A stretch of 64,000 bases of DNA, taken from positions 1-64,000 of the forward strand of contig CAMWYX010000005.1 in the NCBI GenBank assembly GCA_947178575.1, written 5' to 3'. This DNA comes from an uncultured Ruminococcus sp. (GTDB taxonomy: Bacteria > Bacillota > Clostridia > Oscillospirales > Ruminococcaceae). The notes below the pieces were generated by a model. The model made no database searches, was not told the origin of the DNA, and saw only the letters and a list, made by a program, of their open reading frames with translations. Positions 98 to 39,264 of this stretch are shown piece after piece; the first letter of the stretch is position 1, and each line of letters begins with the position of its first letter. The position numbers and the translations under genes were made by a program.

Positions 98-604
98 TGT
101 TGAAAAAATGATACCGTTCTGTAATAATTATACCACACGTTTTCACAAAAATCAATAGGGAAAAAGGAGAAAAAAAACAAGTTTTCAACAGTGTTTTTGA
201 CATTTTGTTGAAAACTTGTTGAAAACTTTGTTGAAAACTCGGCGATTGTTGAAAACTCTGGATTTGCTCTTAAAACAGCAGTTTCCTGACTGTTGAAAAC
301 TTGATTTCAACAGTGTTTCAACAGGTTTTCAACACCCTTTTCAACAGTTTCAACATTTCAACATTCAACAATGTGATAGTTTTGTGAAAACGGAGAAATG
401 TGATAAACGTGTTAGATTTGTGAAGTTTATGGTAATTGTGTGAAATTGTTGAAAACTATGTTGAAAACCTGTTGAAAGTGTGTTGAAAAGTGTTGAAAGT
501 CATGTTGAAAACTTTTTGGAGTTCAAAAAATTCGACTAAAAAATCAATAAAAAAATCCATAATTAAATAATTTGACTACTAAAAATATTGATTAATGTTG
601 AAAA
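98..604. repeat. Cluster of TGTTGAAAA/TTTTCAACA 9-mers; putative oriC DnaA-box-like array
   Basis: About 14 exact copies read at 98, 182(-), 206, 217, 229, 247, 291, 326(-), 338(-), 447, 459, 481, 503 and 596, plus one-mismatch copies. Followed by an AT-rich stretch at about 530-600. Located directly upstream of rpmH, the usual dnaA-rpmH oriC position. Confidence 0.7.
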
Positions 605-659
605 ATAATTGTGAATAATCACAAAATCGCTTTTTCGAAGAAAAAATTTCAAAAACCGC

Positions 660-688
660 TTGACATATACTTGGATTTGTTGTATAAT
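660..688 (+). promoter_or_regulatory. Sigma-A type promoter for rpmH (TTGACA-17-TATAAT)
   Basis: TTGACA at 660-665, 17-nt spacer, TATAAT at 683-688. Confidence 0.8.
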
Positions 689-773: not shown

Positions 774-908
774 ATGAAAAGAACATATCAGCCAAAGAAG
801 CTCCACAGAAAAAAGGAGCACGGCTTTATGAAAAGAATGGCTACCAAGAACGGCAGAAAGGTTTTAGCTCGTAGAAGATCTAAGGGCAGAGCAAGATTAA
901 CTCACTGA
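774..908 (+). CDS. rpmH: 50S ribosomal protein L34
   Basis: Translates to [44 protein letters not shown]; preceded by GAGAGGAGG. Below the length cutoff of the supplied ORF track. Confidence 0.97.
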
Positions 909-984: not shown

Positions 985-1350
985 ATGCTATATACTGTAA
1001 TTTTAAAAGATAATAAGGACTTTCGCAACCTGTACAGAAACGGAAAATATATACCGTCTAAATATTCGGTGATATACATAAAGCCAAATAAACGTCCCTA
1101 TAACCGTTTCGGCATCACCGCCGGCAGAAAAATCGGCAATGCAGTATGCAGAAACAGGGCTAAACGGCTTATCCGCCTTGCATATCAGCAGTCAGAAATA
1201 AATCTCCCTGTGGGAATCGATATTGTTGTGGTCGCAAGAAGCGGTATTCTTGGAATAAAATCAGACGAGTACTGCTCTTATTTCAGTACGTACGGCGTGA
1301 AAGAAATAAATAAGGAAATCAGAAAATTCACGGGAAAATCAAGAAAATGA
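985..1350 (+). CDS. rnpA: Ribonuclease P protein component
   Basis: RnpA motif RNRAKRLIR; position after rpmH. Confidence 0.92.
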
Positions 1351-1643
1351 AGTTCATGTTGATTGCACTGATAAAATTTTACAGGAAATTTTTGTCTCCT
1401 CTGTCTCCGCCAAGATGTAAATATTACCCTACGTGCAGCTGCTATGCTCTAGATGCTGTGAAGAAATTCGGGGCATTCAGAGGAACGGCTCTCGCTGTAT
1501 GGCGCATTCTCCGCTGTAATCCGTGGTCTCTCGGAGGAATCGACTATGTTCCGGAAAGATTTACATTCAGAGTAAAAAAAATTGACTATTCGAGACTTCA
1601 TAACGACGAATCCCCTGCCGATAAGGAGAGTTTTGAAAATTGA
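1347..1643 (+). CDS. yidD: Membrane protein insertion efficiency factor YidD
   Basis: [54 protein letters not shown] is YidD-like; synteny. Confidence 0.95.
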
Positions 1644-2791
1644 GTTCACTTTATGATATTTTCGGTATCCCTTTCGGATACCTTATGAGCTGGATTTATA
1701 AGCTTATACCAAATTATGCTGTCGCTATCATCATCTTTACTCTTGTTACAAAGATACTGCTTTTTCCGGTAAACTACAAGACTCAGAAAGATGCTGCACG
1801 TATGCGTCTGCTCCAGCCGAAATTACAAAAAATTCAGAAAAGTTTCGCAAATAATCAGCAGCGTATGCTTGAGGAACAACAGAAACTCTACCAGCAGGAG
1901 GGCGTGAACCAGATGGCATCATGTCTCCCTATGATGATACAGTTCTTTCTGCTTTTCGGAGTAATTGATGTTGTGTACAAGCCGATTACACATATTCTGC
2001 ATATATCAAAATCCGTAAGAAATGCAGCCATTGAAAGAGCTTCACAGATTGCGACGGAATTCGGAATCGTAAACGGTGGCAGAGCTATAAGCTCCGGCGA
2101 CCTGAGAAACGAGCTGTATACTATGGAGGCTCTTAATAATCACCCTGACAAGTTCAGCGATATTGCGGAAAATTTCCTGAATGCCGTTTCGGAATTTTCA
2201 GAAAAATTCACTATATTCGGAGCAAATCTCGGCAAAACACCCACACTTCACCCCGAAGTCTGGAACAGTGAGGCAGTTGTTCTCGCTCTTATTCCGTTCC
2301 TTGCAGGTCTTGCACAGCTTCTTGTATCTATTTATTCCATGATACATCAGAAGAAAACAAATCCTGTTCCGCAGGCCGGAGGCGGATGTATGTGGGGTAT
2401 GATGCTTGGTATGCCACTTTTATCTGTGTGGTGGGGATTTACATTCCCGGCAGGTGTTGGTTTTTATTGGATATGGTCATCAGTATTCTCTTTCCTCATC
2501 ACTTTTGCACTGAATCTGTATTTCACCAACGAGCGTGTTGCGGAGATAAATGAAAAGGAAAAGAAAAAGGCTCTTGCATATGCTGAGAAACACCCTGGTA
2601 AGAAAACATTTATGCAGAAAATGATGGAAACTTCGGCAGCTTATAATGATGCTGCATCTGCAGTTCAAAATAATAATGGTGAAAAGATGTCACGTTCAGA
2701 ACAGAATAAGGTTGACAGCGATGCACTTAAAGCTGCACGCAGAAGAATGGCCGAAAAATACGGTGATTCATACGAAGACGATAATAAGTAA
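1640..2791 (+). CDS. yidC: Membrane protein insertase YidC/Oxa1 family (TTG start)
   Basis: Hydrophobic segments and YidC motifs ([38 protein letters not shown]); overlaps the yidD stop. Confidence 0.93.
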
Positions 2792-2805
2792 CTGGAGGTT
2801 AGAAA

Positions 2806-3930
2806 ATGACTGAAATTTTTACTGCTAAAACAGTTGGTGAGGCAAAAGCCGCCGCAGCTAAGAAGTTCGGCAGAAAAATAAATGAAATAAGATTTGAAAT
2901 AATCGAAGAGGGAAAAAAAGGCTTTCTGGGAATCGGTCAGGTTGATGCCAAAGTAAAGGCAACATATATCGCACCTGTTCAGAAACCAGTGGCAATGAAA
3001 GCTCCAAAGGCTGAATCGATTGCCAAAAAACCAGCAGAAGCAACAGTTCCAAAGGCTGAACCAGCTGTCAAAAAACCGGCAGAAGCAACAGTTCCAAAGG
3101 CTGAACCGACTGCCCAAAAAACGGCACAAGTGACAGTGCCAAAGGCTGAAATGGCTGTCGAAAAAACGGTGGAAATGAAAGCTACAAAGTCTGAACCGGA
3201 ATCTGTTTCAGAGTCTAAAAGCGATGATGAATGCTTCTCTCTTGATGATTATACGATTGTTGAAGATGAATCCATGCTCCACGCAAAGGTTAAAATAGCT
3301 CGTGATTATATCACAAGTATTCTGAAAGCAATGGATATTGATGTGACATATACTATATATCAGAATGAGACAGGTGCAGTAATCAATATCGAAAGCAATA
3401 ATAACGGAACTGTTATTGGCCGTCGTGGTGAAACTTTGGATTCTATACAGTATCTCTGTTCGATAATTGCCAATAAGGGTGATAAGGATTATTTCCGTAT
3501 CACTATTGATTGCCTCGGCTACCGTAGCAAGCGTATGGAAACTCTTCAGCAGCTTGCAGCAAAGGTATCGAAATCAGTTATCAGAACCGGTCGTTCACAG
3601 CAGCTTGAACCGATGAATCCCTATGAAAGACGGATAATTCATTCGGCTGTATCAGGTATCGAGGGAGTTTCGTCACGTTCTGTTGGAGAAGAGCCGTACA
3701 GAAAGATAATTATTTCTTCAACCAATCCAAAAAGTAACAGCCGTGGACGTGGTAAAGGCGGAAGACATGACGACCGTCGCAGTAATAACAGAAACCGCAG
3801 CGAAAGACGCAGCAGAGAACCTTTTGAATCGAAAGCTATTGATGTTTCCACATCTTTTGAAAAAGAGTATAAAAAACCAAAGCCGGAGGATTCAATGGAA
3901 GGCGGTCTTTACGGAAAGATTGAGTTTTAA
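2806..3930 (+). CDS. jag: Jag/KhpB RNA-binding protein (Jag_N, KH, R3H)
   Basis: Jag_N start (TAKTVGEAKAAAAKKFG), KH GTVIGRRGETLDSIQYL, R3H-like MNPYERRIIHSAV; synteny. Confidence 0.92.
   Translation: MTEIFTAKTVGEAKAAAAKKFGRKINEIRFEIIEEGKKGFLGIGQVDAKVKATYIAPVQKPVAMKAPKAESIAKKPAEATVPKAEPAVKKPAEATVPKAEPTAQKTAQVTVPKAEMAVEKTVEMKATKSEPESVSESKSDDECFSLDDYTIVEDESMLHAKVKIARDYITSILKAMDIDVTYTIYQNETGAVINIESNNNGTVIGRRGETLDSIQYLCSIIANKGDKDYFRITIDCLGYRSKRMETLQQLAAKVSKSVIRTGRSQQLEPMNPYERRIIHSAVSGIEGVSSRSVGEEPYRKIIISSTNPKSNSRGRGKGGRHDDRRSNNRNRSERRSREPFESKAIDVSTSFEKEYKKPKPEDSMEGGLYGKIEF
3004..3183 (+). repeat. Tandem 45-bp coding repeat in the jag linker, about 4 copies
   Basis: Units begin ccaaaggctgaa; encode PKAEx-x-(A/V)-x-K-(P/T)-(A/V)-(E/Q)-... 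repeats. Confidence 0.85.
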
Positions 3931-3987
3931 GCAGTTTTCACGGAGAAGCAACGGTGTAACAGCCGTTGCTTTTTTAGGAGGGATAAT

Positions 3988-5349
3988 ATGTCAACAGTTG
4001 CTGCAATTTCTACGCCGAATGCAGTTGGCGGAATTGCTGTTATCAGAATATCCGGAGATGATGCCATAGGTGTTGCCGAACGTATTTTCACGCCGTTCAG
4101 AGGTAAAAATGTAGGAGATATGAATGGATATACGTGTGCATATGGGACAGCTCATGACAGCGGTGAACGAATTGATGATTGTATTCTTACGGTTTTCAGA
4201 GCGCCTCATAGTTATACCGGTGAAGATACAGCAGAAATTTCCTGCCACGGCGGACTTTTTGTATCACGGAAAATTTTGCAGGCAGCATTGAGGCATGGAG
4301 CAGTTACTGCCGAAGCAGGAGAATTTACAAGACGTGCTTTTCTGAATGGAAAAATTGACCTCACACAAGCTGAATCGGTTATGGATATAATTTCAGCAAA
4401 AGGCGATGCAGAACTGAAAATGGCTGAAAATCTCCGTAGTGGTGCAGCTTTCAGGGCGGCAAAAAAATGCTCGGATTCTTTGCTGAGAATCCTTAGCGGA
4501 CTTGCGGCATGGACAGATTATCCTGATGAGGATATTCCGGAAGTCGAACCCGATAATCTGCTCTCAGAACTTCTGAAAATAAAAAATGATTTATTCAGTC
4601 TTGTAAAAAATTATGACAGCGGAAGAATTATTCGTGAGGGCGTATCAACGGCTATAGTCGGTCGTCCGAATGTCGGAAAATCAACTCTTTTCAATTGTCT
4701 CAGCGGTTTCCAGCGCAGTATTGTTACTGATATTGCCGGTACAACACGTGATGTTATTGAGGAAACGGTGAGACTTGGTGATATTACACTCCGTCTTGCA
4801 GATACGGCAGGAATACACTTGACAGATGATGTTGTCGAGGAAATCGGTGTTGAAATCGCACGGAAAACACTTGAATCCGCTGAAATTGTAATTGCTGTAT
4901 TCGACGGTAGTTGTCCGCTCACAACGGACGATTTTGAACTTATCAGCAGACTTAAATCCGAAAACAGTATCGCAGTTATAAACAAAACCGATAAGAATAT
5001 TGCACTGAATGAAGAAGTATTGAAAAAACATTTTATACATATAGTATATATTTCAGCAAAGGAAAACACCGGAATCAATAATATACAAACAGCTGTAAGT
5101 GAAATTATTGGTCTCAGACCTGAAATTTTTTCTACAGTAACCGTCGCAAATGAGCGTCAGAAAATGTGTATCGAAAACGCTCTTGATTCAGTAAATCAGG
5201 CTGTGAATGCCATTGAATGCGGTGAACTTCTCGACGCTGTAAATGTTCTTCTTGACGATGCCGAACAAAAACTTCTTGAATTGACAGGAGAAAAGATTAC
5301 AGATGCAGTTGTAGACGAAGTGTTTTCAAGATTCTGTGTCGGAAAATAG
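3988..5349 (+). CDS. mnmE: tRNA uridine-5-carboxymethylaminomethyl modification GTPase MnmE
   Basis: GRPNVGKSTLFN, DIAGTTRD, C-terminal FCVGK. Confidence 0.97.
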   Translation: MSTVAAISTPNAVGGIAVIRISGDDAIGVAERIFTPFRGKNVGDMNGYTCAYGTAHDSGERIDDCILTVFRAPHSYTGEDTAEISCHGGLFVSRKILQAALRHGAVTAEAGEFTRRAFLNGKIDLTQAESVMDIISAKGDAELKMAENLRSGAAFRAAKKCSDSLLRILSGLAAWTDYPDEDIPEVEPDNLLSELLKIKNDLFSLVKNYDSGRIIREGVSTAIVGRPNVGKSTLFNCLSGFQRSIVTDIAGTTRDVIEETVRLGDITLRLADTAGIHLTDDVVEEIGVEIARKTLESAEIVIAVFDGSCPLTTDDFELISRLKSENSIAVINKTDKNIALNEEVLKKHFIHIVYISAKENTGINNIQTAVSEIIGLRPEIFSTVTVANERQKMCIENALDSVNQAVNAIECGELLDAVNVLLDDAEQKLLELTGEKITDAVVDEVFSRFCVGK

Positions 5350-5357
5350 CGTAAAAA

Positions 5358-5373
5358 TGTTCCACGTAGAACA
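5358..5373. promoter_or_regulatory. parS-like site TGTTCCACGTAGAACA
   Basis: One mismatch from the perfect palindrome TGTTCCACGTGGAACA; between mnmE and mnmG. Confidence 0.8.
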
Positions 5374-5395
5374 TTCATGACTTTTTTCGTGATTT

Positions 5396-5411
5396 TGTTC
5401 CACGTGGAACA
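5396..5411. promoter_or_regulatory. parS-like site TGTTCCACGTGGAACA
   Basis: Perfect 16-bp palindrome. Confidence 0.9.
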
Positions 5412-5429
5412 CTAAAGGTGAGGTTTGAT

Positions 5430-7304
5430 ATGTCATATAAAATGGGTGAATTTGATGTTATTGTCGTGGGAGCTGGTCATGCCGGTGTTGAAGCGGCTCT
5501 TGCATCTTCAAGACTTGGTTGCAAAACGGCAATGTTTACGATTTCTCTTGACCAAATTGCTAATATGCCATGTAATCCGTCAATCGGCGGTACTGCAAAG
5601 GGTCATCTTGTACGTGAAATTGATGCTCTTGGCGGAGAAATGGGAAAGGCAGCTGATAAATGTTTTATACAAAGTCGTATGCTGAATAAAGGCAAAGGTC
5701 CGGCTGTTCATAGTCTCCGGGTTCAGGCTGACCGTGTTATGTATCATAATTATATGAAGCAGGTCTGCGAAAAACAGGAAAATCTGTATGTAAAACAGGG
5801 AGAAGTCTCGCAGGTATTAGTTGAAAACGGTAGAATTTCCGGAATAATTACATCTCTTGGAGCTGAATATTCGGCAAAGGCGGTAATTATCGCTACCGGA
5901 ACATATCTGAAAGGAAAAATTCATATCGGCGAGTCATCATTTGAAAGCGGACCTGATTCAGCACTTCCAAGTATCGGACTGTCGGCAAGTCTTATCGCCA
6001 ATGGTGTTGAACTGAGAAGATTTAAAACCGGCACGCCCTGCCGTGTTCATCGCAGAAGTATCGATTTTGACTCTATGGAACGGCAGGACGGAGATGATAA
6101 AATTACTCCGTTTTCATTTGATACTCCTGTTGATTATCTTGAAAATAAAGTCAGTTGTTATGTGACTTATACAAATAGTAATACTCATGAAGTGATACTT
6201 TCCAATCTTGAAAGGTCACCGTTATACTCCGGAAGAATAGAGGGTGTCGGCCCACGATACTGTCCGTCAATCGAGGACAAGGTAGTAAGATTTTCAGATA
6301 AGCCACGTCATCAGCTTTTCGTCGAACCGATGGGGCTGTCAACCGATGAATATTATCTGCAGGGAATGTCGTCATCGCTGCCGGAAGATGTACAGCTTGC
6401 ATTTCTGCGAACAATAAAAGGTCTCGAAAATGTTGAGATAATGCGTCCGGCATATGCTATCGAATATGATTGTTGTAATCCGCTTCAATTGTCTGCTACG
6501 CTTGAATTTAAAAATATTGAGGGACTGTACGGTGCGGGACAGTTTAACGGAAGTTCAGGATATGAAGAAGCTGCGGCACAGGGGATAGTTGCCGGAATCA
6601 ATGCAGCTTTGAAAATCGCAGGGAAAAATCCGCTGATTCTGGAACGCTCCGGCTCTTATATCGGAACACTTATTGATGACCTTGTAACTAAAGGCTGTTC
6701 CGACCCGTACAGAATGATGACTTCACGAAGTGAATATCGTCTGATTCTCAGACAAGATAACGCTGACCAAAGGCTTATTCCTATCGGTCACAAAATCGGT
6801 CTTGTTTCGGATTCACGTCTTGAACGCTTAAACAGAAAAATCTTTCTTGTGAATGAAGAATTGAAGCGTGTTTCACGTGAAAATATCAGTCCAAGTAATG
6901 AGTTAAACAAAATGCTGTCCGCAAAAGGTACATCTCCGCTGAAAACAATATGCAGGATTGCAGAACTTATCAAACGTCCGCAGTTGAAGTATAGCGATAT
7001 TGCACCGTTTGATATTAACCGTCCTCCGCTTCCTGATGAGGTATGTGAGCAGGTAGAGCTTCAGATAAAGTATAAGGGATATATCGAAAAGCAGCTTGCA
7101 CAGATTGAACAGGCACACCGGCTTGAGAAAAAAATTCTTCCGCAAAAAATGGATTACAATAAGATTCATGGATTAAGACTTGAAGCAGCTGAAAAACTCA
7201 ATAAGATACAGCCGGTATCAATCGGACAGGCATCACGTATATCCGGAGTTTCTCCGGCTGATATATCAATGCTTATCGTTTGGCTGAAAAGAGAAAAGGG
7301 GTGA
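5430..7304 (+). CDS. mnmG: tRNA uridine-5-carboxymethylaminomethyl modification enzyme MnmG
   Basis: FAD-binding VVGAGHAGVEAALASSRLG, MPCNPSIGGTAKGHLVREIDALGGEMG. Confidence 0.97.
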   Translation: MSYKMGEFDVIVVGAGHAGVEAALASSRLGCKTAMFTISLDQIANMPCNPSIGGTAKGHLVREIDALGGEMGKAADKCFIQSRMLNKGKGPAVHSLRVQADRVMYHNYMKQVCEKQENLYVKQGEVSQVLVENGRISGIITSLGAEYSAKAVIIATGTYLKGKIHIGESSFESGPDSALPSIGLSASLIANGVELRRFKTGTPCRVHRRSIDFDSMERQDGDDKITPFSFDTPVDYLENKVSCYVTYTNSNTHEVILSNLERSPLYSGRIEGVGPRYCPSIEDKVVRFSDKPRHQLFVEPMGLSTDEYYLQGMSSSLPEDVQLAFLRTIKGLENVEIMRPAYAIEYDCCNPLQLSATLEFKNIEGLYGAGQFNGSSGYEEAAAQGIVAGINAALKIAGKNPLILERSGSYIGTLIDDLVTKGCSDPYRMMTSRSEYRLILRQDNADQRLIPIGHKIGLVSDSRLERLNRKIFLVNEELKRVSRENISPSNELNKMLSAKGTSPLKTICRIAELIKRPQLKYSDIAPFDINRPPLPDEVCEQVELQIKYKGYIEKQLAQIEQAHRLEKKILPQKMDYNKIHGLRLEAAEKLNKIQPVSIGQASRISGVSPADISMLIVWLKREKG

Positions 7305-7308
7305 TAAT

Positions 7309-8013
7309 ATGTTGATGGGTTTCGATTTTTGCTGTTCTGAGTTTAAAAAATATGGAATTGTAATAAATAGTGAACAGTATGAAAAATTCGATAAATATGC
7401 TGGTTTTCTCGTGAAATACAACGAAAACGTGAACCTTACCTCAATTACTGAACCACAGCAAATACTTACAAAACATTTCATAGACAGTGTATTGATTACA
7501 AAATATATTGATTTTCCGCTTAATTCCACTGTTATTGATGTGGGAACAGGAGCGGGATTTCCCTCAGTTCCGATTAAAATTATTCGTCCCGATTTAAAAA
7601 TCACACTTTTGGATAGTCTGGCGAAAAGAATAAAATTTCTGAATGAGCTATGTAATATTCTTGATATTGATGCTGAATTGATTCACGGACGAGCAGAAGA
7701 TTTTGGAAAAATGCCTGAATACAGAGAAAAATTTGATTTCTCATGCGCCCGTGCTGTTGCAAATCTTTCTGTCTTGTCTGAATATTGCATACCATTTGTA
7801 AAAAAAGACGGAGAATTTATTGCAATGAAAGGACCGAATGAAAATCCGGACGACAGCATAAAGGCAATTATGTTATTGGGCGGTAAAATTGGAAATGTTT
7901 TTGATTATTTTGTTGACGGCGACAAAAGAAAAGTTATCAGTATCAGAAAAATATCGCAAACGCCGACAAATTATCCACGAAATAGCAGTCAAATTAAAAA
8001 GAAAACATTATAA
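7309..8013 (+). CDS. rsmG: 16S rRNA (guanine527-N7)-methyltransferase RsmG
   Basis: SAM motif VIDVGTGAGFPSVPIKI, RAVANLSVLSEYCIPFVKKDGEFIAMKG. Confidence 0.95.
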   Translation: MLMGFDFCCSEFKKYGIVINSEQYEKFDKYAGFLVKYNENVNLTSITEPQQILTKHFIDSVLITKYIDFPLNSTVIDVGTGAGFPSVPIKIIRPDLKITLLDSLAKRIKFLNELCNILDIDAELIHGRAEDFGKMPEYREKFDFSCARAVANLSVLSEYCIPFVKKDGEFIAMKGPNENPDDSIKAIMLLGGKIGNVFDYFVDGDKRKVISIRKISQTPTNYPRNSSQIKKKTL

Positions 8014-8194
8014 TAATGTCATAATGAGCAAAAAAAACTGTTGTGTTGTCATAATACAGCAGATTTTTTTTATAGATTTTATTTCCCATGCATGATAGAA
8101 TATAATTACAGTAATAGAAACTATGTTTAGAGTATAATTTTATGAGATTTATATATTAACATAGCTCTAAATTCAAAAGTGAGGAAACAGTAAA

Positions 8195-8995
8195 ATGATT
8201 TTAAATTTGACAAAGAAAGAAACGCTCAACGATGTTATTGATATTGAAATCAGCCGGATTGTTTTTAATCCGGCAGAAACTGATTTTTCAGATGCTGAAA
8301 TAAGTATGCTCGCAGATAAAATTGCAGAAAATGGAATTTCCGAGCCCTTTTTTGTTAGGAAATCAGGTGAAAGATATGAACTTATATTTGATAAAAAAAG
8401 ATTGATTGCTGCAAAAATGTGTGAATTTCATTCAGTTCCGTGTATAGTTCATGAGATAAGCGACCGTGATTCAGCTATTCTTGTACTTGTGAAAAGAATA
8501 CAGCATCAGAATATGTCATTTTTTGATGAAGCTTCGGCGATTGAACAGCTTATCAATTATTATGGTATGACTCAGGAAGAAGCAGCATCGAGGCTTGGCA
8601 GAGCGCAGAGTACAATAGCAAATAAACTTCGGCTTTTAAGACTGACTTCTGCTGAACGTGAAATTATTATGGAAAACGGACTGACTGAACGACATTCACG
8701 GGCATTGCTTAAAGTTGCAAGCGTAGAGGACAGGGCAATATTACTTGACAGAATAATCAATGACCGTCTGAACGTTGACAGAACAGAAATTCTTATTAAT
8801 GAGTTTATCGGAAAACAAAAAGAGCATCAAGTATATAAAAGACGTGTGCAGCCTTTTAAAAATATGAATGTATTTATAAATTCCATAAGCAAGTCTGTCG
8901 AGGCAATGAAACTGGCTGGGATTATGGCGGATTTCCGACAGATTAAAAGTGACAGTTACATAGAGTATCGTATCCGAATCCCGATTAAATTATAA
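8195..8995 (+). CDS. noc: Noc-like ParB-family nucleoid occlusion protein with divergent CTP-binding motifs
   Basis: Noc-type HTH TQEEAASRLGRAQSTIANKLRLLRL and C-terminal YIEYRIRIPIKL; position after rsmG. Confidence 0.8.
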   Translation: MILNLTKKETLNDVIDIEISRIVFNPAETDFSDAEISMLADKIAENGISEPFFVRKSGERYELIFDKKRLIAAKMCEFHSVPCIVHEISDRDSAILVLVKRIQHQNMSFFDEASAIEQLINYYGMTQEEAASRLGRAQSTIANKLRLLRLTSAEREIIMENGLTERHSRALLKVASVEDRAILLDRIINDRLNVDRTEILINEFIGKQKEHQVYKRRVQPFKNMNVFINSISKSVEAMKLAGIMADFRQIKSDSYIEYRIRIPIKL

Positions 8996-38419: not shown

Positions 38420-39264
38420 ACCGTCTGGAACTCTACAGGAAATGTATTCGGGAACTCGAAAAGAATGATATTCCCGATGCGGAATTTGATACAGCGTGTA
38501 TTTTTCAGGAAGCACTGAATGAAAAAAATCCGCTTTTCAGACCCGATGCCTCTGTAAGCCGTTCATGCGAACTAAGAATATTCAGCGATATTGAAAAACG
38601 CTGTAAGGGTATTCCGTTGCAGTATATCATAGGTAAATGGGATTTCTGGAAATATACTTTCAAAGTCGGCAAAGGGGTTCTTATTCCTCGTCCAGATACT
38701 GAAACCCTGATTGAAAACGTACTTGACATATGCAGAAAAAACAGTCTGAAATCGCCGAAAATTCTTGATTTATGTGCCGGAAGCGGTTGTATTGCAGTTA
38801 CGCTTGATAAAGAAATCAACAGTTCTGTTGTTTATGCTGTTGAAAAATCAGAAAATGCATTCCGGTATCTTGAGGAAAATATACGGCTGAACAATTCAGG
38901 TGTAAAATCAGTAATGGCAGATGTACTTGACGTTAAAACAGCGGAGAATTTCAGGGATTTTGATATAATCGTATCAAATCCGCCCTATCTTACGGCAGAG
39001 GAAATGACAGAACTTCAGACCGAAGTCAGACATGAACCGGAAACGGCTCTTTACGGAGGAACGGACGGTTTTGATTTTTACCGGGGTATTACGGAAATAT
39101 GGAAAAATTCGCTGAAAAAAGGCGGATATATATGCTTTGAATTCGGTATGGGACAGCACGAAGCAGTCGGGGAAATACTGAAATCACATAATTTCAAGGA
39201 TATTATATACAGTCGTGACGGTGGAAAAATAATACGTTCGGCTGTGGGAAAGCTGGAGGAATAA
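38413..39264 (+). CDS. prmC: Release factor glutamine methyltransferase PrmC
   Basis: [29 protein letters not shown] (NPPY). Confidence 0.95.

Follow-up and report, generated by a model that had tools for sequence, protein, structure and literature searches.

A probable bipartite replication origin and lineage-specific DnaA box in a Ruminococcus-like genus

The closest described counterparts of the locus reported here are the bipartite oriC regions of Bacillus subtilis and Clostridioides difficile (PMC6669920, PMC7561715). In these origins the genes follow the order rnpA-rpmH-dnaA-dnaN, clusters of DnaA boxes flank dnaA on both sides, a DnaA-trio with a GG-rich spacer stands before dnaN with an AT-rich tract beyond it, and the DNA is unwound on the dnaA-dnaN side. 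The present locus shares this gene order, the flanking clusters and the trio with its AT-rich tract. However, its presumed box is TTTTCAACA, not TTATCCACA or TTWTNCACA, and the boxes are far more numerous and densely phased. The low-affinity DnaA-ATP arrays of the Escherichia coli oriC (PMC6070618) are similar in another way, since they too are same-strand runs of 9-mers with gaps of about 2 bp. Those sites are degenerate, whereas the repeats here are near-identical, and neither array of this genome contains a TTATCCACA or TTTTCCACA anchor. Species-specific boxes are also known, including TCATTCACA in H. pylori, TGATCCACA in Caulobacter, TTGTCCACA in Streptomyces and Mycobacterium, and a 12-mer in T. 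maritima (PMC4285127 Table 1). Like these, the 9-mer described here is a lineage deviation within two mismatches of TTATCCACA, but in the tabulated 9-mer high-affinity boxes of other bacteria position 6 is always C, and here it is mostly A.

The probable origin and its box array

The window is the whole stretch of DNA that was analysed, 64,000 nucleotides, and it starts at base 1 of contig C5 in an assembly of 84 contigs and 2.1 Mb. No true copy of dnaA was found anywhere in this assembly, and the window's left edge lacks the gene for this reason and because the contig itself begins at window position 1. The end of a second contig, C30 (21,485 bp), carries another array of 10 exact 9-mers leading into dnaN-recF-gyrB-gyrA. 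The dnaA gene therefore falls between C30 and the window's contig, in a gap that runs from C30:21485 to window position 1, and was probably lost during assembly. Both contig ends carry repeat arrays, and these may be the reason for the break. The assembly lacks dnaA despite a completeness rating of 91%.

The first-pass annotation had proposed an oriC candidate next to a divergent dnaA. In the relatives this arrangement is constant: all 28 same-genus genomes with a readable rpmH have the gene divergent from dnaA (330-1092 bp between the two), although the window genome's own dnaA lies in the assembly gap. The GC-skew inversion expected at an origin is present as well: across dnaA in the near-complete relative G035 the skew goes from -0.031 to +0.054. 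In the window's genome C30 has a negative skew and the first 16 kb of the window have values of +0.10 to +0.12, followed by two slightly negative 8-kb bins (16-32 kb). Together with the enrichment of the 9-mer at the flanks of dnaA, these results uphold the candidate. The features by which bipartite origins are recognised were found here: the position in the rpmH-dnaA and dnaA-dnaN intervals (rpmH at window 774, dnaN on C30), the change of skew sign at the locus, and a cluster on either side of dnaA (14 and 10 exact 9-mers), if TTTTCAACA counts as a box. It is highly probable from these sequence comparisons that window 98-604 is the rpmH-dnaA (oriC1) half of a bipartite Firmicutes-type oriC and that TTTTCAACA prevails among the DnaA boxes of this Ruminococcus-like genus. 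Among the flanking genes, the Jag-like protein encoded at window 2806-3930 carries in translation an internal repeat of PAEATVPKAEP-type units, which separates the N-terminal part from the C-terminal one.

Table. Features of the probable origin and of the distal element (window positions unless another contig or a start codon is named).
Feature	Coordinates	Strand	Basis or remarks
Box array, probable rpmH-dnaA (oriC1) half of the origin	98..604	.	14 exact 9-mers and 6 extra cores
Sub-array, four same-strand boxes (206, 217, 229, 247)	206..255	-	
Reverse-orientation sub-array, TTTCAACA cores at 305, 316, 327, 339, 348, 356	304..363	+	
Sub-array, six cores (447, 459, 470, 481, 491, 503), 10-12 bp apart	447..511	-	
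AT-rich stretch, 83% AT	530..600	.	Secondary DUE candidate only
Lone site matching E. coli consensus TTWTNCACA (TTATTCACA)	610..618	-	Just outside the array
Probable rpmH promoter, TTGACA-17-TATAAT, in a stretch conserved in relatives	660..688	+	Sequence reading; homology of 600-780
rpmH (ribosomal protein L34)	774..908	+	PF00468, E=2.9e-23
Conserved origin-flanking genes rnpA, yidD, yidC/oxaA, jag, mnmE, mnmG, rsmG, ParB/Noc-like	985..8995	+	Names read from ORF translations
Distal element	L031 (contig C30) 6836-7001		Lipoprotein gene 6361-6894, minus strand
Distal sites TTTTCAACA/TGTTGAAN	around -207/-195 from start codon		
Distal sites TGTTGAAAA/TGTKGAAAN	around -163/-151 from start codon		
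Distal site TGTGGATAA	-88 from start codon		
Distal site TGTGGAAAA	-47 from start codon		

About 14 exact copies of the 9-mer had been reported upstream of rpmH, and a recount gives exactly 14 within 98-604 (starts at 98, 182, 206, 217, 229, 247, 291, 326, 338, 447, 459, 481, 503 and 596), of which 11 read TGTTGAAAA and three read TTTTCAACA on the plus strand. The 8-mer core TGTTGAAA adds six sites, for 20 cores in 1-773, and the several one-mismatch copies mentioned earlier come to seven within 1-770. The reported spacings of 11-12 bp (206/217/229, 447/459, 491/503) are likewise correct, 491 being the one-mismatch copy TGTTGAAAG. The copies form three phased runs, the middle one in opposite orientation and with two exact 9-mers (326, 338) among its six cores. 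In both origin halves of the window's genome taken together, 16 of 24 short same-strand spacings are 10-12 bp. The rest of the window, some 63 kb, holds a single further exact copy, at 38838. The genome-wide rate, taken from pattern searches, gives an expectation of 0.02 copies for 507 bp (Poisson P about 8e-35), and 1000 dinucleotide shuffles of 98-770 gave a mean of 0.22 copies and a maximum of 3. The absence of a canonical box from the region also stands, with zero sites for TTATCCACA across the whole window, though the lone TTATTCACA site fits TTWTNCACA.

The motif is conserved in the genus, but copy number varies. In the rpmH-dnaA interval there are 14 exact boxes in the window's genome and 0-5 in its relatives, so the rpmH-side array is partly a lineage-specific expansion. 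Two relatives (G002 and G026) have 16-17 exact boxes, located between dnaA and dnaN instead.

The 9-mer as a probable DnaA box and the likely site of unwinding

When all 9-mers around dnaA were ranked blindly in 30 genus genomes, TGTTGAAAA came first both by presence (30/30) and by count (163). Closely paired copies in the 2.1-Mb genome number 32, and 31 of them belong to the origin region: the window array holds 13, the dnaA-dnaN gap 11 and a cluster some 14 kb distant 7, which leaves 1 elsewhere. Genus-wide, the same-strand spacings have their main peak at 11-12 bp and smaller peaks at 21-22 and 30-31.

The array on C30 includes TAGTAGTAGTAG-GGAC-TGTTGAAAA, a DnaA-trio-spacer-box unit of a pattern that is absent from 464 kb of control sequence. 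The adjoining 60-bp tract is 93% AT, giving the combination of trio unit and AT-rich tract that marks a bipartite origin. The trio-adjacent box reads TGTTGAAAA in three genomes (the window's, G012 and G029) and TGTGGAAAA in six others, and the 4-bp GG-rich spacer is the same in both groups; in a Bacillus-type relative (L156), trio-GGGC-TGTGGATAT is oriented like the C30 unit. Of the 28 genus loci checked, only about half showed a clear DnaA-trio beside a box. A scan for the trio-plus-box pattern in 396 genomes of the order proved too noisy for use. Since the trio unit lies beside the 93% AT tract, and since B. subtilis and C. difficile unwind on that side, the main DUE is more probably on C30 beside the DnaA-trios than at window 530-600. 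The latter had been described as DUE-like in the first-pass annotation. It is indeed AT-rich, but as the main DUE it ranks below C30, where the DnaA-trio-linked AT tract provides the better unwinding site.

TTTTCAACA breaks the consensus TTWTNCACA at position 6. As previously noted, it is two mismatches from TTATCCACA, at positions 3 and 6 only, and so within the limit for DnaA boxes taken from PMC4285127. It also stands where relatives have canonical boxes: at homologous sites (the trio-side box and the conserved distal element), TTTTCAACA is exchanged for TTTTCCACA or TTATCCACA. Because it is top-ranked in 30 of 30 genus genomes and exchanged for accepted boxes at homologous sites, TTTTCAACA is very probably a DnaA box, and the proposal of a lineage-specific box sequence gains from both observations. 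An origin with such a box is real and well supported. A literature search on the 9-mer itself returned only unrelated papers among the matches listed; DoriC, perhaps listing a Ruminococcus box, lay outside that search.

In the mechanism proposed here, domain IV of DnaA would bind each 9-mer. The gaps between 9-mers, mostly 2-3 bp, would put neighboring boxes on the same helical face, so that DnaA-ATP could assemble head to tail along the sub-arrays and fill the phased boxes on both sides of dnaA. Window 98-604 would act as the upstream assembly platform, and the filament on the rpmH side may cooperate across the dnaA gene, by looping, with the dnaA-dnaN array. There, the box-GGAC-DnaA-trio unit would steer DnaA onto one strand, opening the AT tract before dnaN.

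The same gaps, being near the 2 bp of the E. coli low-affinity arrays (PMC6070618), could be read differently. The TTTTCAACA copies might be low-affinity ATP-DnaA sites, comparable to tau, I and C of the E. coli oriC, that are loaded cooperatively from a few high-affinity TTTTCCACA or TTATCCACA sites, with no real change of specificity. The canonical box retained in the distal element and the TTTTCCACA that adjoins the trios in several genus members agree with this. However, neither TTATCCACA nor TTTTCCACA occurs in the two arrays of the window's genome and there is therefore no obvious high-affinity anchor; the trio-proximal box in this genome is TGTTGAAAA itself; and in the genus A outnumbers C at position 6. 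On balance this explanation is possible but rather unlikely. It is very improbable that the repeats are instead iterons of another protein, such as a nucleoid, segregation or transcription factor acting at the origin. A box two mismatches off the textbook sequence and a nearby ParB/Noc-like gene (window 8195-8995) could be taken that way, but the natural exchange with TTATCCACA and TTTTCCACA at homologous positions, the boxes directly beside DnaA-trios and the want of any other DnaA-box array at this origin all speak for DnaA. Neutral tandem-repeat expansion without function, which might explain copy numbers here and in a few relatives far above most of the genus and the apparently duplicated local units (TGTTGAAAACT), is scarcely credible for a motif that recurs around dnaA in every one of the 30 genomes, in both orientations and both origin halves, with helical phasing.

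DnaA domain IV and the extent of the apparent shift

If TTTTCAACA is a DnaA box, the initiator would be expected to differ as well, and a matching change in domain IV had been suggested. The base contacts of E. coli DnaA are at residues 399, 423, 432-435 and 438-439 (PMC5043019). Domain IV of the genus aligns to that of E. coli (chain 1J1V) without gaps and carries P423A, T435S, L438V and H439Y at base-contacting positions, the kind of substitution by which altered specificity was judged, while retaining R399, R432, D433 and H434. Adjacent to the contact residues the genus has K408, T/N442 and S/N443. K408, A423, S435, V438 and Y439 are invariant in the genus, and two Ruminococcus sp. loci (L126 and L129) carry the genus-specific residues. 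The residues of the window's genome, with dnaA in the assembly gap, are presumed from these relatives.

The domain IV substitutions may be what causes the altered preference, namely T and not A at position 3 and A over C at position 6. The substitutions themselves are present as suggested, but the association between residue and box is not significant on independent changes. The strong raw association between Y439 and T at box position 3 (111/34/17/1) comprises only 2-3 independent pairs. Supported pairs per comparison numbered 2-6, on a tree of DnaA domains I-III; the sign tests could not reach significance because this tree holds only a handful of independent changes. A causal link between K408 and A at position 6 (p=0.010 in a plain comparison) was rejected, as it fails in the independent-pairs check.

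The box counts show how far the shift extends. The ratio NTTTCAACA : NTTTCCACA : TTATCAACA : TTATCCACA is 247 : 50 : 10 : 4 at the genus origins (32 genomes), 174 : 129 : 11 : 6 at 73 other DnaA-similar loci with S435/Y439, and 10 : 24 : 33 : 104 at 35 more distant loci with T435/H439. The change from A to T at position 3 therefore extends far outside the genus, and A at position 6 is most pronounced inside it. Around dnaA of Spirochaetes bacterium GH29 (L190), TTNTNAACA occurs 13 times and TTNTNCACA not at all, and this may be a further lineage whose boxes have A at position 6.

The canonical box is not gone from the lineage. Its TTATCCACA site persists in the distal element, as TGTGGATAA at -88, in 12 of 16 genus members, among them the window's genome. 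Because of this conservation, the specificity of DnaA looks broadened or shifted rather than replaced.

A distal DnaA-box element

On the gyrA side of dnaA, at a distance of 14-23 kb, the distal element occupies the upstream region of a small lipoprotein gene. It was seen in the 16 genus genomes that have this gene, more weakly in G029, G025 and G002; the small acidic lipoprotein itself has no Pfam match. Three box types stand in a set order at fixed distances from the start codon, and the order is unchanged in two genomes (G028 and G032) with the gene block inverted. At -163 most genomes have TGTTGAAAA, G019 has TGTTGATAA and G007 has TGTGGATAA. An extra conserved motif, AGCAATATAGTNCTAA, is found upstream in many of the 16.

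In its ordered boxes the element resembles the off-origin box clusters of B. subtilis and datA/DARS of E. coli (PMC5295017). Unlike them, it sits upstream of a lipoprotein gene and combines three box types at fixed positions. The cluster about 14 kb from the window's origin is apparently undescribed. One could tentatively propose, at somewhat less than even confidence, that domain IV substitutions moved the lineage's box preference at position 6 from C to A, and that initiation is also controlled by this additional, position-fixed, datA/DARS-like element of mixed boxes 14-23 kb from the origin.

More TTTTCAACA copies occur on the same contig (L031 7402-7505, 8086, 9779 and 9869) inside pepV-like peptidase and pseudouridine-synthase coding regions, and the pair in the pseudouridine-synthase gene recurs 90-102 bp apart in several relatives. 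In G000, TTTTCAACA and TTATCCACA abut on the same strand (C17:34122-34139), another possible DnaA target.

Of the unexpected results of this analysis, the distal element is the most useful lead: it offers a definite candidate for the control of initiation in a group for which nothing of the kind was found in the literature. Searches by TTATCCACA or TTWTNCACA would miss most boxes in these gut bacteria, and origin predictors and maps of the DnaA regulon should therefore work with a motif specific to the lineage. The natural interchange of TTTTCAACA, TTTTCCACA and TTATCCACA at homologous sites, together with invariant domain IV substitutions, offers a system for testing how initiator recognition can change without loss of the origin.
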